This document shows, in pieces, positions 4,827 to 27,528 of a stretch of 28,280 nt of DNA; position 1 is the first letter of the stretch; each line of letters begins with the position of its first letter. A model generated the notes under the pieces. The model did not search any database, had not been told where the DNA came from, and worked only from the letters and a program-made list of their open reading frames with translations. The stretch comes from a virus. The stretch is taken from positions 1 to 28,280 of IMG/VR virus record IMGVR_UViG_3300037189_013516. The stretch is one strand, 5' to 3'. A program made the position numbers and the translations under genes.

Positions 4827-6683
4827 ATGCCTAACGAAATCGACATTAAATATTTAAATAAAGATTTTAGTTCTTTTAAAGCAGATCTAATAGACTATGC
4901 TAAAGCGTACTATCCTACAGTTTATAATGACTTTAGTCAAGCTAGTCCTGGTAGTATGTTTATTGAAATGGCTTCATACGTTGGTGATGTTATGTCGTTC
5001 TATCTTGATAATCAACTTCAAGAAACTTTTTTACAATATGCTAAACAAAAAAATAATCTTTATACATTAGCATATATGTTAGGTTATAGACCTAAAGTAT
5101 CTTCTGCCGCAATAGTAGATTTAGACGTGTATCAACAAGTTCCTTCTATAACAAACGGAACAGATACAACACCTGACTTTTCATATGCAATGACTATACA
5201 ACAAGGAATGCAGGTAAAATCTTCAATTAATAGCTCAGTTGTATTTTATACTCCTCAAAAAGTAGATTTTACTACCTCTTCTTCATATGATCCAACTACT
5301 ATAGAAGTTTATACTATTGATGGTGGAGGAAATCCTAGTACTTATTTATTAAAGAAAACTGTTCAAGCACTTTCAGGACAAAGTAAAATTGCAGCATTTT
5401 CATTTTCTTCTCCTCAAAGATTTTCTACAGTAACAATACAAGATACATCTATTATATCTATATTAAGTGCTATAGATTCTAATGGTAATACTTGGTATGA
5501 AGTACCTTATTTAGCTCAAGATTATATATTAACACCAGTACAAAATACGGCATTAAACTATCCAAGTTTATACCAGTATTCAAATCAGGTTCCTTATATG
5601 ATTCAAAAACTTCAAGTACCTAGACGTTTTGTTTCTAGGTTTAGAACTGATGGATCATTAGAAATTGAATTTGGATCTGGCATAAATTCAGTAGCTGATA
5701 CTGCAGTTATTCCTAACCCTAATTCAGTAAGTGTTGGATTAACAGGAGGTGGTCTTAGTCAACTATCTAGTTCATTTGATCCAACTAATTTTGTAACTAC
5801 GCAAACTTATGGACTAGCTCCTAAAAATACCACAATTACATTTAATTATTTAGTAGGTGGTGGTGCAAGTGCTAACGCTCTATCTAATCAACTAACTCAA
5901 ATATCATCTTATACTGTTACTGGAAATACTAGTTTCCAAAATACTATAGCTGTAAATAACCCAAATCCTGCTGTAGGTGGTGGGGATGGTGATACTGTTG
6001 AAGAGTTAAGATTTAATATAGCTAATGAATTTCCTACACAGTTAAGAGCAGTTACTCAACAAGATTATCTATCTAGGACTCTTAGTATGCCAGGACAATA
6101 TGGTAAAGTATCTAAAGCTTATGTAACAAAAGACGATGCTACATTTAATAATTACATGCAATCAGATATAAGCCAAAAAGATCAAATATTAGTAAGTCTT
6201 TATTTGCTAGGATTAAATAATGCAAATCAACTAGCAGATCCTTCCCCAGCATTATTACAGAATATTCAGACATATCTTTCAGATTATAGAATGATGACTG
6301 ATTCAATTAATATCAAACCTGCGTATATTATAAACATAGCATGTAATTTTGATATTGTTATTAGACCTAATTATACAAGTCAAGATGTTATTGCTAGATG
6401 CATAATTCAAATGCAAAATTTCTTTAATATTGATAATTGGCAAATAAATGAACCTATTATATTAGGAGATATATATTCAACTCTAGATCAAGTAGAAGGA
6501 GTGCAAACAGTTAAAGATGTAAGAATAGTTAATAAATCAGGAGAGGCTTCAGGATATTCTAGATATTCTTATGATATCTCTGCTGGTACTTTAAATAATG
6601 TAATATATCCTTCTTTAGATCCATCTATATTCGAAGTTAAATATCCTAATACAGATATTCAAGGACGCGTAGTAACAATGTAA
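4827..6683 (+). CDS. 6: baseplate wedge subunit, gp6/baseplate-J-like
   Basis: This 618-aa protein matches the gp6/baseplate J type. The N-terminus (KYLNKDFSSFKADLIDYAK), then SPGSMFIEMASYVGDVMSFY and the helix holding LQETFLQYAKQ, is the classic opening of wedge J proteins. The central beta-rich part carries RRFVSRFRTDGSLEIEFGSG, where the FGxG turn is typical, and residues 385-430 include ELRFNIANEFPTQLRAVTQQ followed by DYLSRTLSMPGQYGKV. The C-terminal third (YIINIACNFDIVIRPNYTSQ, then EPIILGDIYSTLDQVEGVQ) is the conserved alpha/beta end domain. T4 gp6 dimers form the inner iris of the baseplate and link wedges. Its position just after gp25 supports the call. Confidence 0.92.
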   Translation: MPNEIDIKYLNKDFSSFKADLIDYAKAYYPTVYNDFSQASPGSMFIEMASYVGDVMSFYLDNQLQETFLQYAKQKNNLYTLAYMLGYRPKVSSAAIVDLDVYQQVPSITNGTDTTPDFSYAMTIQQGMQVKSSINSSVVFYTPQKVDFTTSSSYDPTTIEVYTIDGGGNPSTYLLKKTVQALSGQSKIAAFSFSSPQRFSTVTIQDTSIISILSAIDSNGNTWYEVPYLAQDYILTPVQNTALNYPSLYQYSNQVPYMIQKLQVPRRFVSRFRTDGSLEIEFGSGINSVADTAVIPNPNSVSVGLTGGGLSQLSSSFDPTNFVTTQTYGLAPKNTTITFNYLVGGGASANALSNQLTQISSYTVTGNTSFQNTIAVNNPNPAVGGGDGDTVEELRFNIANEFPTQLRAVTQQDYLSRTLSMPGQYGKVSKAYVTKDDATFNNYMQSDISQKDQILVSLYLLGLNNANQLADPSPALLQNIQTYLSDYRMMTDSINIKPAYIINIACNFDIVIRPNYTSQDVIARCIIQMQNFFNIDNWQINEPIILGDIYSTLDQVEGVQTVKDVRIVNKSGEASGYSRYSYDISAGTLNNVIYPSLDPSIFEVKYPNTDIQGRVVTM

Positions 6684-12292: not shown

Positions 12293-12952
12293 ATGTCATA
12301 TTTAAGTAATACCTCAGTAATTGTAGATGCTATCTTAACTAAAAAAGGTAGAGAACTTCTAGCCCGGAATGATGGGTCATTTAGAATTACTCAATTTTCA
12401 TTAGCTGATGATGAGATTGATTATACCTTATATAATCCAGTCCACCCATCTGGTTCTGCTTTTTATGGTGAAGCTATTGAAGCAATGCCTATTCTTCAAG
12501 CATATCCTAACGACACAGAGATAATGAAATATAAACTTATTACTCTCCCAAGAGGAACAGCTAAAATACCAGTTCTTGATCTTGGATATACAGCAATTAC
12601 TCTTCGTCAAGGAGCATCTCTTTCAATAACTCCGCAGACCCTAAATTATTTAGGTGCAACATCTACATTTGAACAATCAGGATACGTAGCTACTATAGGT
12701 GACGTTAGAACTATGAGTTCATTTAATGGAGTTGGCATTAATACAGCAGAAGCTACTCAATTAAATTCAACAACTACTATTGGTACTAATGTAAGTAAGA
12801 CAGTAATTGGAACGACTATTAATATAAGTGCAACAACTGTTAACACTCTATTTGGATCTAATACTTCACTATACACAACACTAATTGTTGTTGGTCGTGA
12901 TTCTGGAGCTAGGATATCTATTCCTGTAACTATTACAAAAGTAAATCAATAA
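12293..12952 (+). CDS. conserved T4-like phage virion structural protein
   Basis: This 219-aa protein starts with the highly patterned block SYLSNTSVIVDAILTKKGRE, then LLARNDGSFRITQFSLADDE and IDYTLYNPVHPSG, then MKYKLITLPRGTAKIPVLDL. I recognise this style from virion structural proteins encoded near the baseplate or fibre genes of T4-like phages of aquatic bacteria. The first half is mixed and conserved. The second half (110-219) is beta-rich with many Thr, Asn and Ser. It probably attaches to the tail or baseplate, but its precise place is not known to me. A TATTTAT word and a gap precede it, so it may head a new transcript with the genes downstream. No Shine-Dalgarno is seen. Confidence 0.7.
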   Translation: MSYLSNTSVIVDAILTKKGRELLARNDGSFRITQFSLADDEIDYTLYNPVHPSGSAFYGEAIEAMPILQAYPNDTEIMKYKLITLPRGTAKIPVLDLGYTAITLRQGASLSITPQTLNYLGATSTFEQSGYVATIGDVRTMSSFNGVGINTAEATQLNSTTTIGTNVSKTVIGTTINISATTVNTLFGSNTSLYTTLIVVGRDSGARISIPVTITKVNQ

Positions 12953-14003: not shown

Positions 14004-15230
14004 ATGAGCAGATCGAAGAATACAATAAAAAAATCAGATGCTTCTTCGACTCCTATAAAAGTAAAGTATTCTAATACCTATGCTAGTCAGTCTTTGTATA
14101 GCAATGGAATAACTACTAATAGGGGTATATATTATACTGCTAATAAAGCAGGAAAACCAGGAAGTACAACATATACAGCAAGAAATAATTATGCTGTAAT
14201 TAGACAGCTGTATTATCAAAATTATTTAACCGGTTCAGTTAGTAATCAATCAGCTTCTTATTGGGATTCTTCTTTACAATCCACAGCAGCTTCAGGAACT
14301 TTAGATGATGATTATAGATATTTTCCTTCTGCTACTGGAAGTAATATAAGTTTTCTAGCGATCCCAAGGACTCAATTTGGTGAACAAATTAGTAGAAAAA
14401 CTTTTAAGTTACTTTCAACAGATGGATTAACTTATAGTATTATTGATGATGGTAATGGAAATATAGTAGACACATTTAATAATAATGTTCACGTAGGAAA
14501 TATTATATATTCTCAAGCTATAGTTACAATAACTAATCCTGATTATGTCGGGATAATATTAAATTTTAATTTTACATTTAATATAAGTGTAGCTACGGGT
14601 CCAAGTCCTACACCTACTCCAACAGTAAGTACTACACCAAATGCTAGTAAAACCCCTACTCCGACTATAACACCAAGTCTGACAAGGACTCCTACTGTAA
14701 CTCCGAGTATAACGATTACAAAAACTGCTAGTCCTTCACCAGGAGCTAGTAAAACACCTACTCCGACTAAAACACCGAGTAAAACAATAACACCTACTGT
14801 AACTTCAACACCTACAGTTACACCTACTATGACCGTGACTCCTAGTCCTTCACCAGATATACAAGCTACTATATATGTTTATGGTTTTAATAATGGAAGT
14901 GGATTTGTTTTAGCAGAAGCAGATAATAATGGAGATATTAAAGATGATATTACTATAACAGGAACTATATCAAGATATAGTGGTACTAATTGTACTACCC
15001 TTTTAGGTGGATGTTCATTTATTGGATCAACGCAACTATTTATTCCTAATGGAACACCAAATGGAACTTTTACAGATACGCTTCCTTTATGTGCCAATGG
15101 AGGAGCTAATAGTTGGAAGCCTACAGCATTAGTTGTAAACGGAACTACTATAACATCTAGTCCTCAAATTGTTACCATAGGTAGTAATGACTATAAAATA
15201 ATAGGTTATAACGTATGTGGAGCATTATAA
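14004..15230 (+). CDS. fibre/adhesin-like protein with Thr/Pro-rich linker
   Basis: This 408-aa protein has three parts. Residues 1-199 are related to the central region of the preceding virion protein (NYAVIRQLYYQNYLTGS; FLAIPRTQFGEQISRKTFKL), which probably anchors it to the particle. Residues 200-285 are a linker of TP, TPT and TPS units (SPTPTPTVSTTP, SPGASKTPTPTKTPSK). Residues 286-408 are a compact Gly/Thr/Asn-rich beta domain with four Cys, ending NVCGAL; this is the likely exposed binding domain. A patch of its linker DNA is 28/30 identical to DNA in the next gene. A mucin-like linker in a cytoplasmically made phage protein beside glycosyltransferase genes makes O-glycosylation a credible inference. 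No signal peptide. Confidence 0.7.
   Translation: MSRSKNTIKKSDASSTPIKVKYSNTYASQSLYSNGITTNRGIYYTANKAGKPGSTTYTARNNYAVIRQLYYQNYLTGSVSNQSASYWDSSLQSTAASGTLDDDYRYFPSATGSNISFLAIPRTQFGEQISRKTFKLLSTDGLTYSIIDDGNGNIVDTFNNNVHVGNIIYSQAIVTITNPDYVGIILNFNFTFNISVATGPSPTPTPTVSTTPNASKTPTPTITPSLTRTPTVTPSITITKTASPSPGASKTPTPTKTPSKTITPTVTSTPTVTPTMTVTPSPSPDIQATIYVYGFNNGSGFVLAEADNNGDIKDDITITGTISRYSGTNCTTLLGGCSFIGSTQLFIPNGTPNGTFTDTLPLCANGGANSWKPTALVVNGTTITSSPQIVTIGSNDYKIIGYNVCGAL
14601..14858 (+). repeat. degenerate TP/TPS-coding linker
   Basis: An in-frame low-complexity tract encodes residues 200-285 of the 408-aa protein, built on act/aca-cct/cca-agt units. Less regular than the array in the next gene. Bases 14730-14759 match 16051-16080 at 28 of 30 positions (the SPGAS interruption), indicating that the two linkers share an origin or recombine. 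Confidence 0.8.
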
Positions 15231-15249: not shown

Positions 15250-18200
15250 ATGGATATAATAATAACATTGGATCCTAATTTTGGTAATGGAGTTGTCGGC
15301 CCATTTGATATATACTATAATAATGGTGGCCTTGATACACTAATAGCTACCGGAGTAACTATAGACGAATTATTAGCTGGATATCCACTAACTGTTCCAG
15401 ATGATACAAATTATGTTAAAGAAGTTGATACTGATCCTTACGATTATGGTAATTTTTCAGTACAATATGTAGTCGCTCCAAGCCCTAGTCCCACTCCAAG
15501 TATAACACCTAGTATATCTATAACACCTAGTTTAACTCCTAGTTTATCGGCTACTCCAAGTATAACACCTAGTATATCTATTAGTAAAACTCCAAGTCGT
15601 ACTCCTAGTATAACTCCAAGTTTAACAGCTACACCTAGTATTACCGCCACACCTAGTTTAACACCTAGTATTACAACTACACCTAGTTTAACAGCTACGC
15701 CAAGCATAACAGCTACACCTAGTTTAACAGCCACACCTAGTATTACAACTACACCTAGTTTAACAGCTACGCCAAGCATAACAGCTACGCCAAGCATAAC
15801 TACAACACCTAGCATAACACCTAGTGTATCTATAACACCTAGCGTAACTATAACACCTAGTATTACTAAAACACCTAGTATTACAGCTACACCTACTTTA
15901 ACAGCTACTCCTAGTTTAACTCCTAGTATTACAGCTACACCTAGCATAACAGCTACACCTAGTATTACAACTACACCTAGTTTAACAGCTACGCCTAGTA
16001 TTACAGCTACGCCTAGTATTACAGCGACACCAAGCATAACAGCTACACCTAGTTCTTCACCAGGAGCTAGTATAACACCTAGTGTATCTATAACACCTAG
16101 TTTAACAGCTACACCTAGTATAACAGCTACCCCTAGTTTAACACCTAGTATAACATCTACTCCTAGTTTAACACCTAGTGTATCTATAACGCCTAGTATA
16201 ACAGCTACCCCCAGTTTAACACCTAGTGTATCTATAACGCCTAGTGTAACTATAACACCTAGTATTACTAAAACGCCTAGTTTAACACCTAGTGTATCTA
16301 TAACGCCTAGTATAACAGCTACCCCTAGTGTATCTATAACACCTAGTTCTTCACCGGCAGCTAGTGTATCACCTAGTATATCTATAACACCTAGTTTAAC
16401 AGCAACGCCTAGTATAACAGCTACCCCTAGTTTAACACCTAGCGTATCTATAACACCTAGCGTAACTATAACACCTAGTATTACTAAAACACCTAGTTTA
16501 ACAGCTACGCCTAGTATAACACCTAGCGTATCTATAACTCCAAGTTTAACAATTACACCTAGTATAACACCAAGTTTAACAATTACACCTAGTATAACAC
16601 CAACAGTAACTCCTAGTATATCTACTCCACCGACTGCGTTTGTTATATCTAATACAGATTTCATAGATTATACAACTGCCTGTCGTGTAGGATCAGCCAA
16701 TAATGGTACTATTTATCAAAGTCCTGTTTACACTATACCTACTACACTACAGCAACTTTATACTAATTTAGGATTATCAACTAATTGGGCTCCTACTATA
16801 GGTTCTAATGGTTGGTTTTTATTTACTAAAGGATCAAGTACTTGGGCAGTACAGGTAAACGTAAATGGTATAATAGTAGACGTTGTTGATTGTACAACTA
16901 TTCCATCGATATCAGCTACTCCTAGTGTCACTCCTAGTATTAGTATAACTCCTAGTTTAACACCTAGTATAACTACAACACCAAGTTTAACAGCTACGCC
17001 TAGTGTTACTAAAACACCATCAGTAACACCTAGTTTAACTAAGACTCCTAGTATAACGATTAGTAGAACTCCATCAGTAACACCTAGTTTAACTAAGACT
17101 CCTAGTATAACAGTTACTAAATCGCCTACTCCTACTCCTAGTATATCTTTGTCTCCTTCTCAATCAGAGCCAACAATATACTCATTCAGTTTAGGATATA
17201 GTTCATCGTCTCCTTATTCTGCGTGTATAGCATCTAGAACAACTTATTATTCATATAGTTCAACTTTTGGAGTAGGAGATACATTATATACTGTGCTTAC
17301 ACATCCTCTATCATCAGCTAATTACGCTCCTATTGGGTATTATTCAGACGGTAGTATATATGGCCAAATAGATGGAAATGGAACTATAACATCAACAGCT
17401 GTATGTCCATCACCAACGCCAACTCCATCTAAGACGCCTAGTGTAACTCCAAGTATTTCAGCGAGTCCTCCAATTGTAACTCCAGCTATAAAAGCTACTA
17501 ATGGAGCTACACCAACATCGGATGCATTTAAACTTCAATATTCTACCGTCGGCGTAAATGGTCCTTGGTCCAGTATGCTTCCTACTGTTAATAACGATAC
17601 TATATGTAGATCAATGACAGGATTATCTGTACCAAGTGGTACATTAGTATATTTTAGACTACTTCATGATGTTACATCAGCACCAGTACAATTTGATTCT
17701 GTTAGTGGTACTACAACATGTCCTGCAAATGGCGGAACATCTTGTTATGCATCTTATGTAATAACTACAGGTACTCAATTAGCATTCACTGCTAACATTG
17801 ATGGATCAGGAAATTATACTGATTGTCCTGTCGCTCCATCACCTACTCCTACTGTAAGTAAAACGCCTAGTATAACTAAGACTCCTAGTATAACTCCATC
17901 ATCTCCTAGATATACTGTAACGGTATATGCTAACCAAGATGTAGCAATAACAAGTCCTACTCCAACAGATTCATGGAAATTCTATTATACTACAGCAGGT
18001 CCTACTGTAACTCAATTAGGTGGATCGCTTAATACCGTAACATGTACTTTATTAGGAACAATTACCGGTTTAAAATACGGAGATACTCTATATTTTGGAG
18101 GTAGTAATTCTTCAGATAATGGAGTATATTACAATTATGGATTGAATTCCAGTTGCGCTGCTGCAGCTACACCAGGATGTGGTAAACCATTTAGTGCTGG

Positions 18201-18315
18201 ACCAGGACTTGGATCTAGCATTACAATAACTGGAAATCTTACTTTATATGTAAGAGCTACAGTAATAGATTTTGGTGCTAAAGGACAGTATTTTGAGTAT
18301 TGCCCAGCTCCTTAA
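15250..18315 (+). CDS. giant mucin-like TPS-repeat fibre/adhesin protein
   Basis: This 1021-aa protein alternates folded domains with Thr/Pro/Ser linkers. Residues 1-76 are an N-terminal domain. Residues 77-461 are a long linker of TPSITA-, TPSLTP- and TPSVSI-like hexapeptides with TPSL tetrapeptides. Domain A (462-550, Cys478/Cys548) and domain B (642-719, Cys659/Cys719) look paralogous, sharing LYT-L-(9-11 residues)-N[WY]AP and a closing Cys. Linkers lie at 551-641, 720-741 and 863-886. Domains C (742-862) and D (887-1021) also pair, both ending near CP-AP. About half of the chain is linker. No signal peptide, so it is made in the cytoplasm and probably displayed on the tail. The linkers lack the Asp of the Bacteroides D-S/T-hydrophobic O-glycosylation motif. 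Immediately downstream lie two GT60-like genes, the main reason to suspect dense O-GlcNAc-type decoration. Confidence 0.75.
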   Translation: MDIIITLDPNFGNGVVGPFDIYYNNGGLDTLIATGVTIDELLAGYPLTVPDDTNYVKEVDTDPYDYGNFSVQYVVAPSPSPTPSITPSISITPSLTPSLSATPSITPSISISKTPSRTPSITPSLTATPSITATPSLTPSITTTPSLTATPSITATPSLTATPSITTTPSLTATPSITATPSITTTPSITPSVSITPSVTITPSITKTPSITATPTLTATPSLTPSITATPSITATPSITTTPSLTATPSITATPSITATPSITATPSSSPGASITPSVSITPSLTATPSITATPSLTPSITSTPSLTPSVSITPSITATPSLTPSVSITPSVTITPSITKTPSLTPSVSITPSITATPSVSITPSSSPAASVSPSISITPSLTATPSITATPSLTPSVSITPSVTITPSITKTPSLTATPSITPSVSITPSLTITPSITPSLTITPSITPTVTPSISTPPTAFVISNTDFIDYTTACRVGSANNGTIYQSPVYTIPTTLQQLYTNLGLSTNWAPTIGSNGWFLFTKGSSTWAVQVNVNGIIVDVVDCTTIPSISATPSVTPSISITPSLTPSITTTPSLTATPSVTKTPSVTPSLTKTPSITISRTPSVTPSLTKTPSITVTKSPTPTPSISLSPSQSEPTIYSFSLGYSSSSPYSACIASRTTYYSYSSTFGVGDTLYTVLTHPLSSANYAPIGYYSDGSIYGQIDGNGTITSTAVCPSPTPTPSKTPSVTPSISASPPIVTPAIKATNGATPTSDAFKLQYSTVGVNGPWSSMLPTVNNDTICRSMTGLSVPSGTLVYFRLLHDVTSAPVQFDSVSGTTTCPANGGTSCYASYVITTGTQLAFTANIDGSGNYTDCPVAPSPTPTVSKTPSITKTPSITPSSPRYTVTVYANQDVAITSPTPTDSWKFYYTTAGPTVTQLGGSLNTVTCTLLGTITGLKYGDTLYFGGSNSSDNGVYYNYGLNSSCAAAATPGCGKPFSAGPGLGSSITITGNLTLYVRATVIDFGAKGQYFEYCPAP
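15661..15788 (+). repeat. 56-nt perfect direct repeat within the TPS array
   Basis: Bases 15661-15716 are identical to 15733-15788 (offset 72 nt, exactly 24 codons), with a mismatch immediately on both sides. This is a recent in-frame tandem duplication or recombination footprint. Confidence 0.9.
15826..16497 (+). repeat. 54-nt perfect dispersed direct repeat within the TPS array
   Basis: Bases 15826-15879 match 16444-16497 over 54 nt, with different flanks. The copies are 618 nt (206 codons) apart. A third, slightly diverged version lies near 16227-16282. Recombination between copies would remove or add about 200 residues in frame. Confidence 0.85.
16900..17172 (+). repeat. second TPS linker (91 codons)
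   Basis: Encodes residues 551-641 between domains A and B of the 1021-aa protein. It holds a near-duplicated unit coding TPSVTPSLTKTPSIT at about 17017-17061 and 17071-17115. Two shorter linkers of the same kind follow at 17407-17472 and 17836-17907. Confidence 0.8.
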
Positions 18316-18357: not shown

Positions 18358-19614
18358 ATGTCAAAAATTTTTGTTTCGATAGCCTCCTATAGGGACCCTG
18401 AATTACTCCCTACTATAAATAACTTATTAGAGAATTGTGCTAATCCACAAGATTTAACTATTTGTATTGGTTGGCAACATGCAGAACAAGATACTTGGGA
18501 TACTTTAGATTTATATAAAGATGATCCAAGATTTATTATATTAGATATTCCTTATAAAGAAGCTAAAGGAGTTTGCTGGATGAGGTCAGAAATCCAAAAA
18601 AATTATAATGGAGAAAAATATTATTTACAATTAGATTCTCATCATAGATTTAGTAAAGATTGGGATATTACAATAAAGGATTATTTGCACTATTTACAAT
18701 GTAAAGGCCACGAAAAACCTTTATTATCAGCTTATATACCAGGATATTATCCAGATAAAGATCCAAAAGGTAGGGTTAATGAAGTTTGGGGATTGAATAT
18801 AGATAGGTTTATGCCTGGAGGTGCAATATTTTTAGCTCCTCATCACGTAGATAATTGGGAAGATTTAAAAGAACCTTTCCCGTCAAGATTTATCTCTGCA
18901 CATTTTATTTTTACTTTAGGATCGTTTCCTATAGAAGTTCCTTATGATCCTGAATTATATTTTCATGGTGAGGAAAGTTCTTTAGCCGCTAGAGCTTATA
19001 CATTTGGGTATGATCTTTTTTCTCCTCATAAACCTGTAATTTGGCATGAATATACAAGAGAAGGAAAGAAAAAACATTGGGATGATTCAGGAGATTGGAA
19101 ACAAAGAGATGATGCTTCTTATGCAAGATATAGAAAATTAATGGGAATGGATCCAGGTTGTTCTTCATGCACTAGAAGAGCATTAGCTCCAAATTATTTT
19201 GGAACTACAAGATCTTTAGAAGATTTTGAAAAATATGCCGGATTAAAATTTAGTACTAGACAAATTCATGTTGAGACTATACAAAATAATTTTCCTCCAA
19301 TAAAAGGAGATTATGAATCAGGTTTAGCATCAAGAATAAAACATTGTATAGATGTATATAAAGGATCTCTTACTGAATCTGATTATGATTCATTTGCTGT
19401 AGCCTTTTTAGATGAAAATGGTAATGACGTATATAGAAAAGATTGCGATAAAAGTGAAATTATATCTTTATTTAGTCAAGATAAAAATGATCAGTTTATA
19501 CACATATGGAGAGATTACGAAGATAATAAACAACCGTATTCTTGGAGAGTTTGGCCTCATAGTGAATCAAAAGGTTGGTTAGAAAGAATAGATCAAGTTA
19601 TAGAATATGAATAA
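18358..19614 (+). CDS. GT60-like polypeptide GlcNAc-transferase family enzyme (first copy)
   Basis: This 418-aa protein has the hallmarks of the PF11397/GT60 GlcNAc-transferase family. These are the start IFVSIASYRDPELLPTINNL (4-23), LDSHHRF (92-98), where DSH occupies the metal/nucleotide-sugar site, GGAIFLAP (154-161), and YFHGEESSLAARAYTFGYDL (201-220) ending PHKPVIWHEY. Known family members (Dictyostelium Skp1 GlcNAc-transferase, Trypanosoma cruzi mucin GlcNAc-transferases) act on hydroxyproline or Thr of proteins. A CSSC (residues 269-272) might bind metal. The C-terminal 120 residues are an extra domain shared with the next gene. It lies 42 nt after the mucin-like protein, so that protein is the obvious candidate acceptor. 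Sugar donor and acceptor are inferred. Confidence 0.82.
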   Translation: MSKIFVSIASYRDPELLPTINNLLENCANPQDLTICIGWQHAEQDTWDTLDLYKDDPRFIILDIPYKEAKGVCWMRSEIQKNYNGEKYYLQLDSHHRFSKDWDITIKDYLHYLQCKGHEKPLLSAYIPGYYPDKDPKGRVNEVWGLNIDRFMPGGAIFLAPHHVDNWEDLKEPFPSRFISAHFIFTLGSFPIEVPYDPELYFHGEESSLAARAYTFGYDLFSPHKPVIWHEYTREGKKKHWDDSGDWKQRDDASYARYRKLMGMDPGCSSCTRRALAPNYFGTTRSLEDFEKYAGLKFSTRQIHVETIQNNFPPIKGDYESGLASRIKHCIDVYKGSLTESDYDSFAVAFLDENGNDVYRKDCDKSEIISLFSQDKNDQFIHIWRDYEDNKQPYSWRVWPHSESKGWLERIDQVIEYE

Positions 19615-20878
19615 GAAAAAAACAATACTAGTACATTTACCGGCTTACAGAGATCCAGAATTAATTCCTACTATTAAAGACGCATTAGCAAATGCTAAAT
19701 ATCCAAAAAGAATACATTTTGGTATTTGTAGACAATATCATCCTGATGATAAATTTGATGATTTATCTGAATTTGAAGGAGATACTCGATTTAAAATTTA
19801 TGAGTGTTTATATAATGAAGCTCAAGGACTTCCTTGGGCAAGAGCCATTATAAACGAAAAATTATTAACAGATGAAGATTACATTTGTCAATTAGATTCA
19901 CATCATAGATTTGCTAAAGATTGGGATGAGACTTTAATAGATATGCATAGTGGTTTAGAGGCTCGTGGTTACAAACCAATTCTTGCAGCCTATCTACCAT
20001 TATATACACCATTTGATGATCCTGGTGGCCGCACAATGGAGCCGTGGCAACAGCATTTTGCTTGCTTCTATCCTCATGGAACGATATTCATTAGACCAGG
20101 CTTACTTACAGGATGGGAGACTATGACGGAACCTCCAATGAGTAGATTTTTATCAGGGCATTTTTGTTTTGCAAGATCAGAGTGGGCTAAAGAAATAAGA
20201 CACGATCCAGATATCTATTTTTCAGGTGAAGAATTAAATTTAACAGTAAGATCATATACTCATGGGTATGATTTATTTCATCCACATAAATTAGTAGTGT
20301 GGCATTCTACTATGCGTGAAGAAAGATCAGGTATGTTAAAATGGGATGATGATTCTAAATTAGGAGTAGATTGGTGGAATAAACAAGAATATGCTAGAAA
20401 AAAAATAAGAGTTTTATTAGGAACAGAAGAAGATCCAAATATAGACTTAACAGGATATGATTTAGGAACAGTTAGAAGTTTACGAGACTACGAAAAATAC
20501 GCAGGTTTTCATTTTAAAAATAAATCAGTTCAGCAATATACTTTAGATAATAAGTACCCTCCTAATCCTCTTATCAAAGATGACAGTTTATGGGAATTAT
20601 CTTTTACACAATCATTTTATCATTTAGTAAAATTATATAAAACTGATTTTCCTTTTGATGATTATGAATTTATTCATATGGCATTTGATGATGAAGCAGG
20701 TAAACCTATATATGTAAGAAATTTAGAAAAAGATTATATAAAAAGAGTATTAAGTACTGAATCAGGTTATTTTGATTTTGAAGAAATATTTTTAGTAAAT
20801 AAAAAACCATCTAGATTAGTACTATGGGGATATAGTAATGAAAGAGGGTGGTGTGAACGTAAAGAAGAAATAATATAG
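19607..20878 (+). CDS. GT60-like polypeptide GlcNAc-transferase family enzyme (second copy)
   Basis: This 423-aa paralogue of the preceding enzyme overlaps it by 8 nt (ATGAATAA), so the two are translationally coupled. It keeps the same motifs: LPAYRDPELIPTIKDALANA (11-30), LDSHHRFAKDWDETL (96-110), HGTIFIRP, YFSGEELNLTVRSYTHGYDL (204-223) and PHKLVVWH (226-233). It also shares TVRSLRDYEKYAGFHF with TTRSLEDFEKYAGLKF of the first copy, and a similar C-terminal domain. Divergence elsewhere suggests different donor or acceptor preference, for example Thr versus Ser sites, or priming versus a second sugar. All acidic and His motif residues appear intact, so both copies should be active. Confidence 0.82.
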   Translation: MNKKKTILVHLPAYRDPELIPTIKDALANAKYPKRIHFGICRQYHPDDKFDDLSEFEGDTRFKIYECLYNEAQGLPWARAIINEKLLTDEDYICQLDSHHRFAKDWDETLIDMHSGLEARGYKPILAAYLPLYTPFDDPGGRTMEPWQQHFACFYPHGTIFIRPGLLTGWETMTEPPMSRFLSGHFCFARSEWAKEIRHDPDIYFSGEELNLTVRSYTHGYDLFHPHKLVVWHSTMREERSGMLKWDDDSKLGVDWWNKQEYARKKIRVLLGTEEDPNIDLTGYDLGTVRSLRDYEKYAGFHFKNKSVQQYTLDNKYPPNPLIKDDSLWELSFTQSFYHLVKLYKTDFPFDDYEFIHMAFDDEAGKPIYVRNLEKDYIKRVLSTESGYFDFEEIFLVNKKPSRLVLWGYSNERGWCERKEEII

Positions 20879-20881
20879 TAT

Positions 20882-21580
20882 ATGAATAAATTTATTGAAG
20901 TTTTAAAAGCATGTGATAGTTTTAAAAAAAACACTTATTATTGGACTCATGATGTTTTAACTCATGAAGAAAATAGCATTAGAAATTACCCAGCTCCATG
21001 GATAACAAAAACAATTGAACTATTAAAAATAATCGATGCTAAAGTTGTAGTAGAAATTGGATCAACAAGAAGAGAGTTAACTCAATCATGCATTAATTAT
21101 TATAATAATTCTATTAATTTAGAAAGTAAAGATGCACCTCCGTGTTGTCAAGATGGGCATTCAACTTATTTTTGGGCTAGAGAAGGATTTGATGTTTACA
21201 CCGTAGATATTGATGAACATTGTAAAACAGAACTAGAAAAACAATATCAATATCATATAAAAGAACCAATTCCAGATAATTTACATATCTGTATTCCTCA
21301 AGATGGTATTCAATTTTTAAAAGACTTTGATAAAAAAATTGATTTTCTTTTTTTAGATGGCTGGGATAAAGGAACTCATGAATATGCAGAAAGACATTTA
21401 GAAGCTTTTTTAGCTGCTCAAAATAAATTATCAGATTTACATATTATTTCTATTGATGATACTGATTTTAATACAGATAGCGCTGGTAAAGACAAATTAC
21501 TAACTCCTTATTTACTTGAAAATAATTATGTTAAAGTATTATGGGGTAGACAAACTGTCTTTTTAAAAAATCAAATATGA
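20882..21580 (+). CDS. class I SAM-dependent methyltransferase
   Basis: This 232-aa protein shows a Rossmann methyltransferase pattern: motif I KVVVEIGSTRRE (54-65), motif II VYTVDIDEH (105-113) with acidic Asp109/Asp111 to bind the SAM ribose, motif IDFLFLDGWDKGTHEYAERH (153-172), and HIISIDDTDF. The LDGWxxGTHEYxxRHLEAF style resembles Methyltransf_24-type enzymes, which often modify sugars or small molecules. It starts 3 nt after the GT60 pair and overlaps the next gene by 4 nt (ATGA), placing it in the cassette. O-methylation of a sugar on the phage glycan is the likely role (inference). A DNA or protein substrate cannot be excluded; no DNA-MTase NPPY/DPPY motif is seen. Confidence 0.75.
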   Translation: MNKFIEVLKACDSFKKNTYYWTHDVLTHEENSIRNYPAPWITKTIELLKIIDAKVVVEIGSTRRELTQSCINYYNNSINLESKDAPPCCQDGHSTYFWAREGFDVYTVDIDEHCKTELEKQYQYHIKEPIPDNLHICIPQDGIQFLKDFDKKIDFLFLDGWDKGTHEYAERHLEAFLAAQNKLSDLHIISIDDTDFNTDSAGKDKLLTPYLLENNYVKVLWGRQTVFLKNQI

Positions 21581-22593
21581 GTAAATTTATAAGGCAAGTA
21601 TTTGGATCGGTACATTTTAAAACTAGGTTTCTACCATTTATAGAAAATAATAAAGAGACCGCACATAATTATATCTATTTAGTAGATAACTATGAACTAT
21701 ACGAACCTTATAAAAATCTTCTAACTATTATAGATATAGAAGATGCCAGAAAAAATCATCCGTGGAGTACTAATGATATTGAAGTTCATTATAAAGAAAA
21801 AGATCCAGAATTATATGCCAAAAATTTTCATCAATTTTATAAACAAAAAAATAGCCTACTTCCTTTTTGTACGATGAGATTTTTGTTTCCATATATGTAC
21901 GAAAATAATATTTTAAAATTTAGTTATGTAGGAAATAATGTTTTTATAACCAACCAACAAAAAATTATAGATAACTTTTTTAAAAAAATTCCTGAGGGCG
22001 TACTTGGTATTCCTCATATAGGTCCTATGGATGAAACATACTCATCACCGATATTTGGTCATATAGGAAATCTATTAAAAAGTAAATTTCCACAGTTAAC
22101 CATTCCAGAAGATTATTGGTATTGTGAATTATTTACTTGTGATTTTAGTTTTAAAAATAAAGAAGATATAAAATTATTTTACGAAATTTTTGATTATATA
22201 ACTTACTGTTATAATTTTTCTGATAACATACATATTAAAAATCATTTTTTTCAAAAAAATCATGGGTATACTAAAATAGATGATATAGTTGGATACTTAT
22301 TAAGAATTTTTGAAATTAATTTTAATTATAAAATAAAAAATCGTCTTCACTATTGGGAAGATGATACATTAGGATTTCATATGTCAACACCGCATGATTC
22401 ATGGTATTATTCTAATATGCTTCCTAATTGGAATCTTTTACCTCCTAATAAAAATGAAACAGTGTTTACAACTGAAGAATATATCAAAAAGAATAAAGAT
22501 GCTTTAATAAATTATTATAATAATCATGCAACACATGCTACGTATAACATAACAGAAAATAATAATATTATTATTAAACATAAAAATATATAA
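21577..22593 (+). CDS. GT8-like protein lacking the DxD motif (possible inactive partner)
   Basis: This 338-aa protein is a paralogue of the next gene. DIEDARKNHPWS (53-64) corresponds to DIDELRKDYPWS there, and LPFCTMRFLFPYMYEN (95-110) corresponds to IPGSIWRFVFCLPEIE. Where the next protein has CNCDIE, this one has VGNNVFI (118-124), with no acidic pair. If the GT8-like reading is right, metal-dependent transfer should be lost. The protein might be a non-catalytic partner, bind acceptor, or use a different mechanism. The rest is rich in aromatic and Asn/Lys residues, with no membrane segment. It overlaps the methyltransferase by 4 nt. Confidence 0.6.
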   Translation: MSKFIRQVFGSVHFKTRFLPFIENNKETAHNYIYLVDNYELYEPYKNLLTIIDIEDARKNHPWSTNDIEVHYKEKDPELYAKNFHQFYKQKNSLLPFCTMRFLFPYMYENNILKFSYVGNNVFITNQQKIIDNFFKKIPEGVLGIPHIGPMDETYSSPIFGHIGNLLKSKFPQLTIPEDYWYCELFTCDFSFKNKEDIKLFYEIFDYITYCYNFSDNIHIKNHFFQKNHGYTKIDDIVGYLLRIFEINFNYKIKNRLHYWEDDTLGFHMSTPHDSWYYSNMLPNWNLLPPNKNETVFTTEEYIKKNKDALINYYNNHATHATYNITENNNIIIKHKNI

Positions 22594-22609
22594 ATTAAAA
22601 AAATAAATA

Positions 22610-23533
22610 ATGCTTCTAGTATATTATACAATAGGTCCAACATTTAGAAATCGTATAGTTTATAGTATTTTAAAAAATATAGAAAGTTATTCTTTATTTG
22701 ATGTCCTTATTATGACGGATATGAAAGAAGATCCTATATTTAAATCATTAGAAAGTTACAAAAATATAATAATAAAAGATATTGATGAATTAAGAAAGGA
22801 TTATCCGTGGTCTATTGAGTACGAAAAATTACCAATAAAAACATTAAATGAAAAAGAATACGCTACATATGTACTTGAAAAAGATTGGGTAATACCTGGT
22901 TCTATATGGAGATTTGTATTCTGCTTACCAGAAATAGAAAAGTATGATGCTATTTTTGTTTGCAATTGCGATATTGAATGTAAAGCTGATCAGTTAATAT
23001 ATGACTCTATAAAAAATTCTTTCAGTTCTTTAAATAAAGATATGGTAATAGGAAATGGAGGTTATGATTTTACAGATAGATTTGGTGATTTAGCTAATAT
23101 AATTATTAAAGAAAATAATTATCAACAATTAAATCCTAGATTATATTCTAATGATGGCAACTTTTTTTGCTATACTTTTAAAAATAAAAATAATATAAAA
23201 AATTATTTAGATATTTTTAATAATATAGTCTACGAAATATTAGTAAATAACCGTGAAGATTTATTTATTTTAGGCCGTCATGGAATTTGGGCAGTAAATA
23301 ATGAACCCATTCAATCTATAGTTCATTCTATATTAGATATAGATGTAGCATCACTTACCTTTGAAGTAAATAGAGGGTTTTCTATACTAACATTTCCAGA
23401 AGATAGATTTTGGAATTGGTGTCAAGGAGATTTTATTTGTACATTAGAAAGTAAAGAGGAATTTATAAAAATAAATTATGAAAGACTAAAATCTTTTTAT
23501 ATAAGTAGAGGTCAACTTTGGAATTACAATTAA
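22610..23533 (+). CDS. putative GT8-like glycosyltransferase
   Basis: This 307-aa protein begins with a beta strand, LLVYYTIGPTFRNRIVYSIL, followed by FDVLIMTDMKEDP. It contains PGSIWRFVFCLPEIEKYDAI (96-115) and then FVCNCDIEC (116-124). This matches the GT8-type arrangement of an R-containing helix, LPE, YD and a DxD-like metal site, here D121-I-E123. A late HGIW (279-282 region) could provide the family's second metal ligand. It is paralogous to the preceding protein. Substrate unknown; glycan extension on a phage structural protein is inferred from context. The leader is A-rich (AAAAAAATAAATA before ATG), without Shine-Dalgarno. Confidence 0.6.
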   Translation: MLLVYYTIGPTFRNRIVYSILKNIESYSLFDVLIMTDMKEDPIFKSLESYKNIIIKDIDELRKDYPWSIEYEKLPIKTLNEKEYATYVLEKDWVIPGSIWRFVFCLPEIEKYDAIFVCNCDIECKADQLIYDSIKNSFSSLNKDMVIGNGGYDFTDRFGDLANIIIKENNYQQLNPRLYSNDGNFFCYTFKNKNNIKNYLDIFNNIVYEILVNNREDLFILGRHGIWAVNNEPIQSIVHSILDIDVASLTFEVNRGFSILTFPEDRFWNWCQGDFICTLESKEEFIKINYERLKSFYISRGQLWNYN

Positions 23534-23542
23534 TTAAAAAAT

Positions 23543-24355
23543 ATGGCAATAGTAACACTAACAACAATACCTTCAAGGCTTTCAGTATTAGATGATCAAG
23601 GAATAAAATTATGTATTAATTCATTAATTAATCAAAATTATGATGATTATGAAATACATTTTAATATTCCTTATATTAATAATTTAACTAGAGAAGAATA
23701 TATTATTCCTGAATGGTTAGAGGAGTGCAGTAAAATTAAAATTTTTAGAACAGAAGATTTAGGTCCAGCAACTAAATTAATACCAACAGTACAAAGAATA
23801 ACTGATCCTGAAACTATAATAATTGTAGTTGATGATGACCTAGTTTATGATCCTGATATGGTAAAGACTCAAATTGAAAATCAAAATAAATGGCAAGAAG
23901 GTATTGTTGGATATGATGGAATGAGATCTAGAGACGAAAATGGAAATTTTGCATCTAATTTTGGTGATAGTAGAGACTACTATTTCACATCCCAAAAAAT
24001 AAGTATCAGAGTAGATATAATTCAGCATTATAAAACAGTATCATATAAAAGACGTTATTTTGAAGAAGATTTTTTTGATTTTGTAAAAGAGTATTATTCT
24101 TGGGCAGATGATATATTAATGGCAGCTTATTTTTCTAGTAAAAAAAGAGATAGAATAGTTGAAACACACGAATCAATACCTAATTTTCCTACTTTTGATG
24201 ACTGGATAAATGGCGGAGGAGTGTCTACATTTCCTGTATTAAGACATACTCATCACGAATCTTATGAAGGATGTAATATATTTAGACAAACTGAGGTTAG
24301 TGATAATGGAAATAATTTATATAAAATTTTTATAGATCATGGTTATTCAAAATAA
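23543..24355 (+). CDS. GT-A-type glycosyltransferase with DDD motif
   Basis: This 270-aa protein starts AIVTLTTIPSRLSVLDDQGI and continues KLCINSLINQNYDDYEIHFN, the beta-alpha-beta opening of a GT-A/GT2-like fold. LGPATKLIPTV (73-83) and TIIIVVDDDLVYDPDMV (91-107) follow, with Asp97-99 as the DxD metal/nucleotide-sugar site. The SWADDILMAAYF block (about residues 186-197) may supply the catalytic acid or base. Short proteins with 'GPATKL...VDDDxxY' are widespread in polysaccharide gene clusters. It sits 9 nt after the GT8-like gene and 5 nt before the large fusion. The glycan and sugar cannot be determined from sequence. Confidence 0.72.
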   Translation: MAIVTLTTIPSRLSVLDDQGIKLCINSLINQNYDDYEIHFNIPYINNLTREEYIIPEWLEECSKIKIFRTEDLGPATKLIPTVQRITDPETIIIVVDDDLVYDPDMVKTQIENQNKWQEGIVGYDGMRSRDENGNFASNFGDSRDYYFTSQKISIRVDIIQHYKTVSYKRRYFEEDFFDFVKEYYSWADDILMAAYFSSKKRDRIVETHESIPNFPTFDDWINGGGVSTFPVLRHTHHESYEGCNIFRQTEVSDNGNNLYKIFIDHGYSK

Positions 24356-24360
24356 TTTTT

Positions 24361-26745
24361 ATGCAATATAAAGAAACATTTTCTAACATATATGATACAT
24401 TTGGTTTTGGTAGTACTGAAAGTAGATCTGGTCCTGGCAGTACATTAGAAGAAACTAAATTACTTAGAGAAAAAATAAAAGAGTTAGTATTACAAAAAAA
24501 TATTAAATCTGTAGTTGACATTCCGTGCGGAGACTTTCATTGGATGAAAGAAATTGTTTTTAATTTTGAGAGTTACATTGGCGGTGATATAGTAGATAAA
24601 TGTATTCAACAAAATAATGAAAAGTATAATAGTCCAAGAATAAAATTTATTAATTTTGATTTAGTAAAAGACGATATACCAGAATCAGATCTATTAATTG
24701 TCAGAGATATTATAGGACACTTTCCTATTGAAGAAGGAAAAAAAATAGTAGAAAATATTTTAAGATCAAATTGTAAATATCTTTTAAGTACTACATGGGC
24801 TAAAAAAACAGATCAAGGTTGGAGTAGGTGTAATCCTAATGATGTTCATAGAGAAAACGAAGGTGTAGATTTTGGGAGATTTTATCCAGTTAATTTAATG
24901 GCATCTCCATTTAATTTTCCTGATGCTGATGTATATTTAGAGGAAGATGTTAGAGTCGATAATTTTGAAAATGGAAATAGAAAAGTTTTAGCTTTGTGGG
25001 ATATACAAAAAGTTAAAGAATATGTACAAAATTTAAAACCTATTGAATCAAAAAAATCTAATTTAGATTTAACTGTGGTTACTGGTCTTTGGAATATAGG
25101 AAGGCCTAATAGAGATTTTAGTCACTACATAGAAAACTTCAATAAATTTTTAGATATTGATGTTAATATGTTTATCTATATTCCTAAAGAATATGAATAT
25201 TTAGTTTGGCAAAAAAGATCTAAAGAAAATACGTTTGTTAAAGTGTATGAATTAGAAGATGTAAAAAATTTATATGCTCCTTTTTGGGATCAAACACAAA
25301 AAGTAAGAAACAATCCAGATTGGTATAATCAAACAGGCGAAGGAGGTTGGTTAAAAACAAGTCCTCAAGCCTCATTAGAATGGTATAATCCAATAGTTCA
25401 ATCTAAGATGTTTATGCTTAATGATGTTACTATATGGAACCCTTTTGATACTAATCATTTTATTTGGTTAGATGCAGGTATTACTAATAGCGTATATGAA
25501 AAATATTTTACAGATAATAAAGCGTTAGATAAAATACTTCCATACTTAGAATCATTTTTATTTTTAAGTTATCCTTATGACGCAGTAAATGAAATTCATG
25601 GATTTAATTACTCTGCTATTAATGAATATGCTGGAAAAAAAGTTGAACATGTTTGTAGAGGGGGTTTATTTGGTGGTAGAAAAGAAATAATAAATCAAGC
25701 TAATTCTACGTATTATGCTATATTACAAAGATCTTTAGGATCTGGATATATGGGAACTGAAGAGAGTATATTTACTATAATGTCTTACCTAGAACCTAAT
25801 ACATATAGAAGATACGCTTTAGATTACAATGGTTTAATAGTTAAATTTGTTCAAGCTCTATTAGATGATAAAGTAGAGTTAGAAGACATACCACAAAATG
25901 AAATAAAAATTATTAGAAAATACATTGACACAAAAAAATTAAAACTGTCATTGTATATGTTAACATTTAATTTTCCTCATCAATTAGAATATACCATACA
26001 AACATGGCTTAAGCATCCTAAGTGGATAACAGATACTAGAAATATTTTGATAGATAATTCTACTAATGATGAAGCGAGATTAGCTAACGCAGAAATTTGT
26101 AAGAAGTATAATTTTGAACATATCATAACTAATGAAAATACAGGAATAAATGGAGGACGTTTTAGAGCCGCTCAGCACTTCCAAGAATCAGATAGCGATT
26201 ACTATATTTTTTTAGAAGACGATATGGGAATACATGAACCTGTAGATGGATACTGTAGAAACGGTTTTAGAACCCATGTACCAGATTTATATACTAAAGC
26301 ATTAAAAATAATGGAATCTTCGGATATAGATTTTCTTAAGCTGTCTTATACTGAAGTTTACATGGATAATAATATTCAGGTTTCTTGGTACAATGTTCCT
26401 CAATCTATTAGATCAGAATTTTGGCCAACATATGATAAACTACCAATAACAGGTTTAGATCCAGATTCTCCTAGAACTAAATTTGATAAAATAGAAGTTA
26501 TTGATGGATTAAGTTATATTACTGGTGATATATACTACTGTAATTGGCCAACTATAACTAATAAGAAAGGAAATCAAAAAATGTTTTTAGATACTGTATG
26601 GGCAAATCCTTATGAACAAACTTGGATGAGTTATATGTTTCAAGAAACTAAAAAAGGAAATCTTAAACCCGCGATATTATTAGCTAGTCCAATAAATCAT
26701 AATAGAATTGCTCATTATAGTCCTGAAGAAAGACGTGAGAACTAA
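24361..26745 (+). CDS. three-domain fusion: methyltransferase + HtrL/YibB-like + GT2-like glycosyltransferase
   Basis: This 794-aa protein joins three enzyme-like domains. Residues 1-225 look like a SAM methyltransferase: SVVDIPCGDFHWMKE (50-64), YIGGDIVDK (72-80), IVRDIIGHFP (113-122). Residues 235-500 resemble HtrL/YibB-type proteins: LTVVTGLWNIGRPNRDFSHY (237-256), HFIWLDAGI (366-374), RGGLFGG (433-439), GTEESIF (465-471). Residues 528-794 are GT2-like: LSLYMLTFNFPHQLEYTIQT (529-548), ENTGINGGRFRAA (592-604), YIFLEDDM (615-622) with a DxD-like EDD. Fusing methylation and two transferases suggests a processive or capping enzyme that completes and methylates a glycan. No frameshift is seen; the reading frame is continuous. 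It ends just before the TATTTAT word at 26746. Confidence 0.7.
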   Translation: MQYKETFSNIYDTFGFGSTESRSGPGSTLEETKLLREKIKELVLQKNIKSVVDIPCGDFHWMKEIVFNFESYIGGDIVDKCIQQNNEKYNSPRIKFINFDLVKDDIPESDLLIVRDIIGHFPIEEGKKIVENILRSNCKYLLSTTWAKKTDQGWSRCNPNDVHRENEGVDFGRFYPVNLMASPFNFPDADVYLEEDVRVDNFENGNRKVLALWDIQKVKEYVQNLKPIESKKSNLDLTVVTGLWNIGRPNRDFSHYIENFNKFLDIDVNMFIYIPKEYEYLVWQKRSKENTFVKVYELEDVKNLYAPFWDQTQKVRNNPDWYNQTGEGGWLKTSPQASLEWYNPIVQSKMFMLNDVTIWNPFDTNHFIWLDAGITNSVYEKYFTDNKALDKILPYLESFLFLSYPYDAVNEIHGFNYSAINEYAGKKVEHVCRGGLFGGRKEIINQANSTYYAILQRSLGSGYMGTEESIFTIMSYLEPNTYRRYALDYNGLIVKFVQALLDDKVELEDIPQNEIKIIRKYIDTKKLKLSLYMLTFNFPHQLEYTIQTWLKHPKWITDTRNILIDNSTNDEARLANAEICKKYNFEHIITNENTGINGGRFRAAQHFQESDSDYYIFLEDDMGIHEPVDGYCRNGFRTHVPDLYTKALKIMESSDIDFLKLSYTEVYMDNNIQVSWYNVPQSIRSEFWPTYDKLPITGLDPDSPRTKFDKIEVIDGLSYITGDIYYCNWPTITNKKGNQKMFLDTVWANPYEQTWMSYMFQETKKGNLKPAILLASPINHNRIAHYSPEERREN

Positions 26746-26759: not shown

Positions 26760-27065
26760 ATGGCTATTATTCCCTATAAACCTTTTACTGTATCATTCGT
26801 TGCTGAATCTACCATTTATCAAAATGAGATTAGATGTCATGTTGATGAGAATGATTTTAACTACACATTAAATCCTAGCGCAAATAAAGCAGGTACATCA
26901 GGATCTTATATAGACGCAGTAACAGGATCAGACTTTCATCCATACACTACTATGGTTGGATTATATAATGATCAAGATGAACTTTTAGTAGTAGGAAAAT
27001 TATCAAGACCGTATCCCATCCCACAAAATACAGATATGACTTTCATAGTCAGATGGGATAGTTAA
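26760..27065 (+). CDS. stand-alone homologue of a virion protein C-terminal module
   Basis: This 101-aa protein is recognisably the same module as residues 270-344 of the virion protein at 12964-13998. DENDFNYTLNPS corresponds to KNGEYNYTTNPS, TTMVGLYNDQDELLVVGKLS corresponds to TTVGMYNDNNELVAVAKLS, and FIVRWDS corresponds to IRVKLDW. It is therefore probably a small virion or baseplate-associated beta protein, not a cassette enzyme. Its location just after the glycosylation cassette means the cassette and fibre genes are bracketed by two copies of the module. Whether it is a remnant of a longer fibre gene or a complete small protein is open; it has its own start and an intact C-terminus. Confidence 0.72.
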   Translation: MAIIPYKPFTVSFVAESTIYQNEIRCHVDENDFNYTLNPSANKAGTSGSYIDAVTGSDFHPYTTMVGLYNDQDELLVVGKLSRPYPIPQNTDMTFIVRWDS

Positions 27066-27075
27066 ACTTTAAAGT

Positions 27076-27528
27076 ATGAAATGGTTTTATGTAGATGCAC
27101 TTGGAAGCTATCGAGAATTCAAGAAGATAGAAGATTTTCCAGAGAATGCAATTGGCTTTATATATAGGGTAACAAACATTATCACGAATCGATTCTACAT
27201 AGGTAGAAAGGTTCTTTATAACAATACTAATAAAACATTAACCAAAAAGGAAACAGAGGCCTGGATCAAACCTGGGCGCGTCCCAAAGAAGAAGAAAGTC
27301 ACTAAAGAAAGTGACTGGCTAACTTATTATGGAAGTAATAAGAATTTAAACTTAGAAAGAAAGGAATTAGGAAACGAAATATTCACTAGAGAGATCCTTC
27401 AATTGTGCTACTCTAAAAAACAACTTACTTATTGGGAAGTTTATTGGCAAATGAAATTTGATGTACTTCGTATAGATTCCTATAATGATAATATACAGGG
27501 CAGATTTTACAGAAAGGACTTAGAATAG
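27076..27528 (+). CDS. putative GIY-YIG nuclease (Seg/homing-type)
   Basis: This 150-aa protein carries a GIY-YIG-type N-terminal pattern: GFIYRVTN (27-34), then FYIGRK (40-45), with Arg44 in the catalytic position. WLTYYGSNKNLNLERKELGN and TREILQLCYSKKQLTYWEVY follow; the Glu of YWE is a candidate metal ligand. A basic insertion of Lys and Arg (about residues 54-75) may contact DNA. This layout resembles small phage endonucleases related to T4 Seg proteins, some of which are mobile homing enzymes. No DNA-binding NUMOD tail is visible. It begins 10 nt after the previous stop. Its codon use is less AT-biased than the cassette genes, in keeping with a different history. Confidence 0.7.
   Translation: MKWFYVDALGSYREFKKIEDFPENAIGFIYRVTNIITNRFYIGRKVLYNNTNKTLTKKETEAWIKPGRVPKKKKVTKESDWLTYYGSNKNLNLERKELGNEIFTREILQLCYSKKQLTYWEVYWQMKFDVLRIDSYNDNIQGRFYRKDLE

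Follow-up and report, generated by a model that had tools for sequence, protein, structure and literature searches.

A phage tail-module gene cassette with predicted mucin-type O-glycosylation of threonine/serine/proline-repeat proteins

The GT60 glycosyltransferases of Trypanosoma cruzi are UDP-GlcNAc:polypeptide alpha-GlcNAc-transferases, which form GlcNAc-alpha-Thr on mucins and correspond, in protists, to the GT27 mucin-type initiators (PMC9472816, PMC8724618). Among phages, glycosyltransferases of mycobacteriophages Che8, Corndog and Myrna O-glycosylate the phages' own structural proteins (Freeman et al., 2023, as described in PMC12363180 and PMC11652166). For phage XacN1, PMC5852040 reports at least two virion glycoproteins, for which its authors suspected phage glycosyltransferases, and cites the virus-encoded, cytoplasmic glycan machinery of Chlorovirus PBCV-1. 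Here we describe a cassette of seven genes (positions 18358-26745) in a 28,280-base IMG/VR virus record (IMGVR_UViG_3300037189_013516; the whole stretch is referred to as the window) that contains the tail module of a contractile-tailed phage. Judging from genes and sequence, the cassette is likely to encode a cytoplasmic mucin-type O-glycosylation system for the threonine/serine/proline-rich (T/S/P) tracts of the phage's own predicted tail proteins (14004-15230 and 15250-18315).

Support comes from the enzyme families, the gene architecture, purifying selection, the lack of membrane segments, and the repeated occurrence of GT60 together with P/S/T tracts on tail-type proteins. The alternatives weighed against this reading (ALTERNATIVES) were DNA glycosylation, O-antigen conversion and other virion acceptors.

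Cassette enzymes and candidate acceptors

The cassette comprises seven intact, ATG-started open reading frames (ORFs) of 418, 423, 232, 338, 307, 270 and 794 amino acids (aa), with spacings from 5' to 3' of -8, +3, -4, +16, +9 and +5 nt:

18358..19614, +: GT60a, polypeptide HexNAc-transferase-like, predicted chain primer, constant first gene (PF11397, 3.5e-63; phrog_24687, 1.2e-146)
19607..20878, +: GT60b, second PF11397 protein, overlapping GT60a by 8 nt (Pfam, 5.4e-49; 38% identity to GT60a; in most cassettes)
20882..21580, +: methyltransferase, weakly Methyltransf_24-like, variable-middle gene (Pfam, 2.3e-4, below cut-off; phrog_24975, 3e-15)
21577..22593, +: ORF4, GT-A fold glycosyltransferase by AlphaFold2 and Foldseek, GT8-like fold, variable-middle gene (no family match)
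22610..23533, +: ORF5, GT-A fold glycosyltransferase by AlphaFold2 and Foldseek, GT8-like fold, variable-middle gene (no family match)
23543..24355, +: ORF6, GT2-family glycosyltransferase with a DDD motif at residues 97-99 (PF00535, 7e-8)
24361..26745, +: fusion of methyltransferase (aa 16-196), HtrL_YibB (aa 236-480) and GT2-like (aa 530-622) domains (PF09612, 2.8e-12; PF00535, 0.0016, weak; phrog_3382 methyltransferase, 3.7e-34)

A first-pass annotation, made from the sequence alone, had described a contiguous seven-gene run with small overlaps and gaps, and the coordinates and spacings agree with it. Profile searches bear out its two GT60-like proteins, its DDD-type GT-A enzyme and its methyltransferase/HtrL-like/GT2 fusion. 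The separate methyltransferase it proposed is recovered by the PHROG profile, but the Pfam match falls short. For its two GT8-like proteins the GT-A fold stands, but a PF01501 sequence match is lacking.

GT60a and GT60b belong to the PF11397 family (214.7 and 168 bits, with a cut-off of 21). The motif LDSHHRF, a metal-binding motif of the DxH/DxD type, does not vary among 19 phage homologues, which include the two window copies and those of phages XacN1 and RAS14. By analogy with the family, a UDP-GlcNAc:polypeptide alpha-GlcNAc-transferase activity is putative for the window enzymes. A search of the GT60 sequences against solved structures returned no meaningful match.

ORFs 4 and 5 match no Pfam family, including the GT8 family PF01501. 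They were modelled with AlphaFold2 from alignments of window and locus proteins. The ORF4 model (mean pLDDT 65) has as best Foldseek matches XXYLT1 (E 3.5e-5), Kre2/Mnt1 and Bogt6a, and that of ORF5 (mean pLDDT 83) has XXYLT1 (E 1.8e-6), LARGE1 and LgtC. Glycogenin, LARGE1 and LgtC were also matched in searches of the two models, with modest TM-scores of 0.3-0.45. Because there is no family match and the TM-scores are modest, the GT8-like label of these modelled proteins is valid at the level of fold only.

Ratios of non-synonymous to synonymous substitution (dN/dS) are 0.10-0.16 for GT60a (three relatives compared) and 0.12-0.32 for the fusion protein; therefore, these proteins are in use and under purifying selection. 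The value for the methyltransferase at 20882-21580 is 0.105, relative to a 75% identical homologue in G023/L151.

Directly 5' of the cassette, two ORFs bear TPSITPSLTATPS.. tracts:

14004..15230, +: tail-region structural protein with a conserved N-terminal domain and a C-terminal T/S/P tract, candidate acceptor from its sequence (23 TP/SP dipeptides)
15250..18315, +: 1021-aa protein with mucin-like TPSITPS.. tracts, main candidate acceptor (107 TP/SP dipeptides; 672 aa of tract)

Thr precedes most Pro residues in the tract of the larger protein, which consists of 25% T, 21% S and 17% P, with about 2% each of D and K and 0% E. It has the dense Thr/Ser-Pro repeats and few charges of a mucin-type acceptor. 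As in virion O-glycosylation, the glycosyltransferase genes lie within a phage structural region (the tail module, in viral records).

No membrane segments were found in the seven enzymes (peak 19-residue hydropathy 1.12). This bears on the possibility that the cassette converts the host O-antigen or another surface glycan for superinfection exclusion. Phages do carry O-antigen conversion genes, phrog_22739 matches weakly, and the HtrL_YibB domain, which is named after an E. coli gene near the lipopolysaccharide core locus, was counted in favor of such a role. The position in the tail module and the link with tail repeat proteins argue against it. A GtrA-like flippase and a GtrB-like membrane glycosyltransferase are absent, because none of the seven proteins has a membrane segment. 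The gtr type of conversion, with a membrane flippase and membrane-anchored glycosyltransferases, was rejected, as its membrane components are missing, and we consider O-antigen conversion highly unlikely.

Association of GT60 with repeat tracts

A control set of 80 loci was fetched via an unrelated tail gene (12293-12952), irrespective of GT60, and 34 of these extend at least 8 kb downstream. P/T/S-rich ORFs are present in 7/7 of the contigs with GT60 versus 3/27 of those without (Fisher p=2e-5; the relatives are not independent). To find the same gene in other loci, we also searched with a profile built from the N-terminal 190 residues of the 14004-15230 protein. The homologue has a tract in 13/13 loci with GT60. 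More than 60 loci have the homologue but no GT60 in the DNA examined; of these, only L054, L059 and L089 carry the tract. A piecewise scan of 13 large contigs (79-183 kb) located tracts in 7/7 with GT60 versus 1/6 without, where the single case is weak. For eight contigs with GT60 and no nearby tract, scanning the rest of the contig located one in four cases.

The pairing recurs outside this lineage. Among the cultured phages of the collection, GT60 matches are confined to XacN1, RAS14 and CM1, one unrelated jumbo-phage group. XacN1 and RAS14 share the gene order GT60 - carbamoyltransferase - .. - HtrL-GT2 and encode a baseplate-adjacent protein of more than 3,000 aa with TPTPTPTTTPQLSPTP or TPSPTPAAPTPSSTATPTP tracts. 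In XacN1, GT60 is ORF334, HtrL-GT2 is ORF330 and the TPTP tract is in ORF325. Relatives of ORF325 occur only in GT60-bearing records, which leaves no GT60-free control. On two crAss-like contigs from bacterial assemblies (L233, L268), GT60 is accompanied by a muzzle protein of crAss type in which PTPTP occurs. The Jiulongibacter sediminis chromosome (L232:7948-15151) has a cellular counterpart of the cassette, in which GT60, a NodU-type carbamoyltransferase and a methyltransferase/HtrL-GT2 gene lie beside a small TPTP-rich protein.

In Burkholderiales, GT60 is encoded a few kb from VgrG, the spike of the type VI secretion system (T6SS), which carries a P/S/T-repeat C-terminal tail. In seven genomes, the tail is present on 7/7 GT60-linked VgrGs versus 0/19 others. 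Three more genomes, found by VgrG alone, all encode GT60; their three linked VgrGs, 4.5-20 kb away, are tailed, and a fourth VgrG, encoded on a separate contig and 65% identical in its core, has no tail. In total, 10/10 GT60-linked VgrGs have the tract versus 0/20 other copies. The repeat units vary (TPDE, PTPT, PPPSEE, TEPPP, PTG), as if composition were kept rather than sequence. Tailed, GT60-linked VgrG loci are L278:15075-17717, L276:15072-17561, L265, L266, L271, L272, L274, L275, L277, L371, L372 and L373. PF11397 proteins are also widespread in Enterobacterales (L279, L280, L292, L300, L305, L308 and others), Acidobacteria and Aquimarina, where they have no nearby P/S/T protein.

Several observations count against a GT60 system dedicated to T/S/P tracts. 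The tail-gene tree yields just 3-5 independent pairs, too few for significance. In most of these pairs the tract differs in the direction of the association, and in none against it, so the phylogeny-aware test is suggestive only. The 10 VgrGs are not independent and may reflect one or few events, because they are orthologues. Tracts occur without GT60 in L059, L061 and L089, where the cassette may be out of view, as these contigs are short (26-45 kb). Conversely, no tract was found in the DNA examined of L009-L012, L022 and L024, which have GT60, and in bacteria a search within 10 kb of GT60 found no tract at most loci. In L009 (145-6912) and L011 (1912-6279), very long S/T-rich, Pro-poor fibres with SSYSYTASS repeats replace the TPS tracts, and the acceptor there may differ from a TPS tract. 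The glycan, the acceptor site and the virion location of the repeat proteins are predictions.

It is in L009 and L011, where the cassettes adjoin these fibres, that a different target is most possible, namely that the enzymes act on other virion proteins (capsid, tail tube or Ser/Thr-rich fibres) and that the T/S/P tracts are flexible stalks that merely share the late region. Mycobacteriophages do glycosylate capsid and tail tube proteins (described in PMC12363180 and PMC11652166). However, such targets give no account of why the same structural gene has a tract in loci with GT60 and nearly never in those without it, nor of the tract-less VgrG encoded away from GT60. We regard this explanation as unlikely.

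Glycosylation of the T/S/P tracts remains our preferred reading for the window. A broader proposal, which we offer tentatively as a real possibility, is that GT60 proteins could be dedicated mucin-type O-glycosylation initiators for contractile-tail machines generally (phage fibres and baseplate proteins, the crAss-like muzzle and T6SS VgrG). Exposed tail proteins would gain P/S/T tracts that are glycosylated in the cytoplasm by a linked GT60, and the constant/variable/constant locus of the phages would diversify the coat, as O-antigen loci do.

Constant and variable parts of the locus

With GT60a as query we recovered 27 IMG/VR loci, among which five pairs seem to represent a single phage each or two almost identical ones. 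The 5' end of the cassette is GT60 in every case, usually as a tandem pair with the identical 8-nt overlap. HtrL-GT2 is always the terminal gene of complete cassettes; in the window this constant last gene is the fusion protein, the N-terminal methyltransferase of which is optional among relatives. Between these ends are 1-10 genes, which across the loci fall into more than 30 protein clusters. By Pfam, they include GT10 fucosyltransferase, GT2, GT25, GT8, galactosyltransferase-like proteins and FkbM methyltransferases, as well as NodU-type carbamoyltransferase, GDP-mannose 4,6-dehydratase and an epimerase. A constant-variable-constant layout of this kind would be expected of a locus for glycan diversity. 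The same middle genes (fucosyltransferases, FkbM, carbamoyltransferases, GDP-mannose dehydratase and epimerase) strengthen the view of the first-pass annotation that the content suffices to build an oligosaccharide. Going beyond that annotation are the probable T/S/P-repeat acceptor, the layout and the probable direction of the GT60s toward polypeptides.

The window sequence is near-identical in L003, from another sample (1 mismatch in about 19.9 kb), and the cassette gene order is seen again on independent contigs, with diverged versions in G023 and others. The cassette is neither a chance arrangement nor an assembly artefact.

Other features of the window are:

4827..6683, +: baseplate wedge (gpJ-like) protein, which marks the region as a contractile-phage tail module (phrog_219, 7.7e-21)
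26760..27065, +: 101-aa conserved protein, which marks the 3' border of the cassette; in the cassette-less locus L089 it is directly 3' of the repeat proteins

The wedge protein shares 45% identity with its counterpart in Flavobacterium phage immuto and 44% with the one in Microcystis phage Mel-JY01. Window genes are preceded by A-rich leaders with no obvious Shine-Dalgarno sequence, which would suit a Bacteroidota host, a candidate host only. Scans for promoters and terminators gave signals at chance level. A gene for a SegE-like GIY-YIG endonuclease (27076-27528; PF19835, 1.6e-26) adjoins the 3' border, as it does in several relatives, and could aid mobility of the cassette. In the empty-site locus (L089:6300-11433), TPS-repeat proteins are followed by the 101-aa border protein and then a GIY-YIG gene, and the cassette is absent.

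An empty site at the window's position is what a passenger island at an insertion hot spot beside repeat proteins might leave. Such an island, or a cassette that acts on a small molecule or a cytoplasmic protein of the host, would also suit the many bacterial GT60 genes without a repeat neighbor, and the cassette of G009, which lies apart from the main fibre locus. Yet a repeat protein adjoins the G009 cassette too (a fragment with PTS=0.36 upstream in L017, and a 37-dipeptide ORF at the contig end), and a hot spot alone would not select tracts in VgrG or the muzzle protein. We give this explanation very little weight.

A further alternative is that glucose or another sugar is attached to hydroxymethylated phage DNA. 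The first-pass annotation, which saw no gene of the hydroxymethylcytosine pathway, had judged DNA modification less likely, and this judgement is supported, though on other grounds. Three relatives, G002, G008 and G009 (3/7 large cassette contigs), do encode a protein related to thymidylate synthase in which the Asn177 position is occupied by Asp, as in dCMP hydroxymethylase, but four large cassette contigs (G007, G020, G023, G025) lack the hydroxymethylase-like type. The proteins of the three relatives are ThyA-like, 210 aa long and have FGFCND (L110:132-776 and L112:72-707, on contigs G002 and G009; also in G008). From these sequences, the three phages may have hydroxymethylcytosine DNA. Their hydroxymethylase-like gene is not coupled to the cassette, and DNA modification was rejected as its function. 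The window enzymes, in this fragment, match no Pfam family of alpha or beta DNA glucosyltransferases of the T4 type. GT60 is a polypeptide-directed family, and we know of no DNA glycosylation gene set as large as seven genes with the carbamoyl and fucosyl tailoring seen in the relatives. A DNA target is very improbable.

Proposed mechanism and comparison with known systems

In the simplest model for glycosylation of the repeat proteins, the reaction would start in the host cytoplasm, while the tail is being assembled or earlier: GT60a and GT60b would take HexNAc (GlcNAc by analogy) from a UDP-sugar and place it on Thr/Ser in the TPS repeats. Chain lengthening would fall to the GT8-like, GT2 and HtrL-GT2 enzymes and capping to the methyltransferases; methyl-capping of the predicted glycan is plausible. 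Relatives would add carbamoyl or deoxy-hexose groups. On the virion, glycosylated repeats may form a stiff and hydrophilic sleeve or fibre of variable antigenicity. This coat could serve as a spacer, a shield against antibodies or proteases, a decoy or an adhesin.

If this is correct, 'phage mucins' are a testable class, in which a repeat scaffold bears a variable glycan coat and one locus combines starter enzyme, acceptor and tailoring genes. It would have a bearing on how phages withstand antibodies and proteases, on how they resist being adsorbed to debris, and on the frequency of TPS repeats in phage fibres. Prokaryotic GT60 proteins would also gain a function, and the VgrG spikes of some T6SS are predicted to be glycosylated. 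The cultured phages XacN1 and RAS14 make a direct test possible. In the literature covered, which is partial and excludes bioRxiv preprints, we found no link of phage GT60 or T6SS VgrG to glycosylation of P/S/T tracts, no description of the modular cassette and no described role for prokaryotic GT60 proteins.

In the Skp1 pathway of Dictyostelium and Toxoplasma, a cytosolic GT60 is followed by several glycosyltransferases to form a pentasaccharide, and a prolyl hydroxylase supplies the hydroxyproline that serves as acceptor. The cassette resembles it in the sequence of GT60 and then several glycosyltransferases, but differs in the hydroxylase. The 2OG-Fe(II) oxygenase family PF13640 was identified in 0/20 cassette contigs (mostly incomplete). 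A Skp1-type hydroxyproline acceptor is unsupported because no prolyl hydroxylase was found, and this route was set aside. PBCV-1 resembles the proposed system in its virus-encoded cytoplasmic glycan machinery. It is a virus of eukaryotes, with N-type attachment to the capsid and different enzymes.

The window enzymes share PF11397 and the DSH motif with TcOGNT1 of T. cruzi and Dictyostelium GT60, and the acceptors, probable in our case, are mucin-like and Thr/Pro-rich in both. Unlike those enzymes, they are phage-encoded, cytosolic rather than Golgi-based, and in tandem, within a tail module that includes extension and capping genes; their donor and acceptor are putative. XacN1 has homologous GT60 (ORF334) and HtrL-GT2 (ORF330) genes and reported virion glycoproteins, but a shorter cassette; its authors named two glycosyltransferases and made no link to the TPTP tract of ORF325 (PMC5852040). 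The Che8, Corndog and Myrna enzymes act on capsid and tail tube, whereas the present cassette probably acts on a repeat tract of the tail fibre/baseplate region, has GT60 as its first enzyme and is modular and variable. Glycosylation of phage virions is already known; the pairing of GT60 with repeats, in a modular cassette, would be a new form of it.

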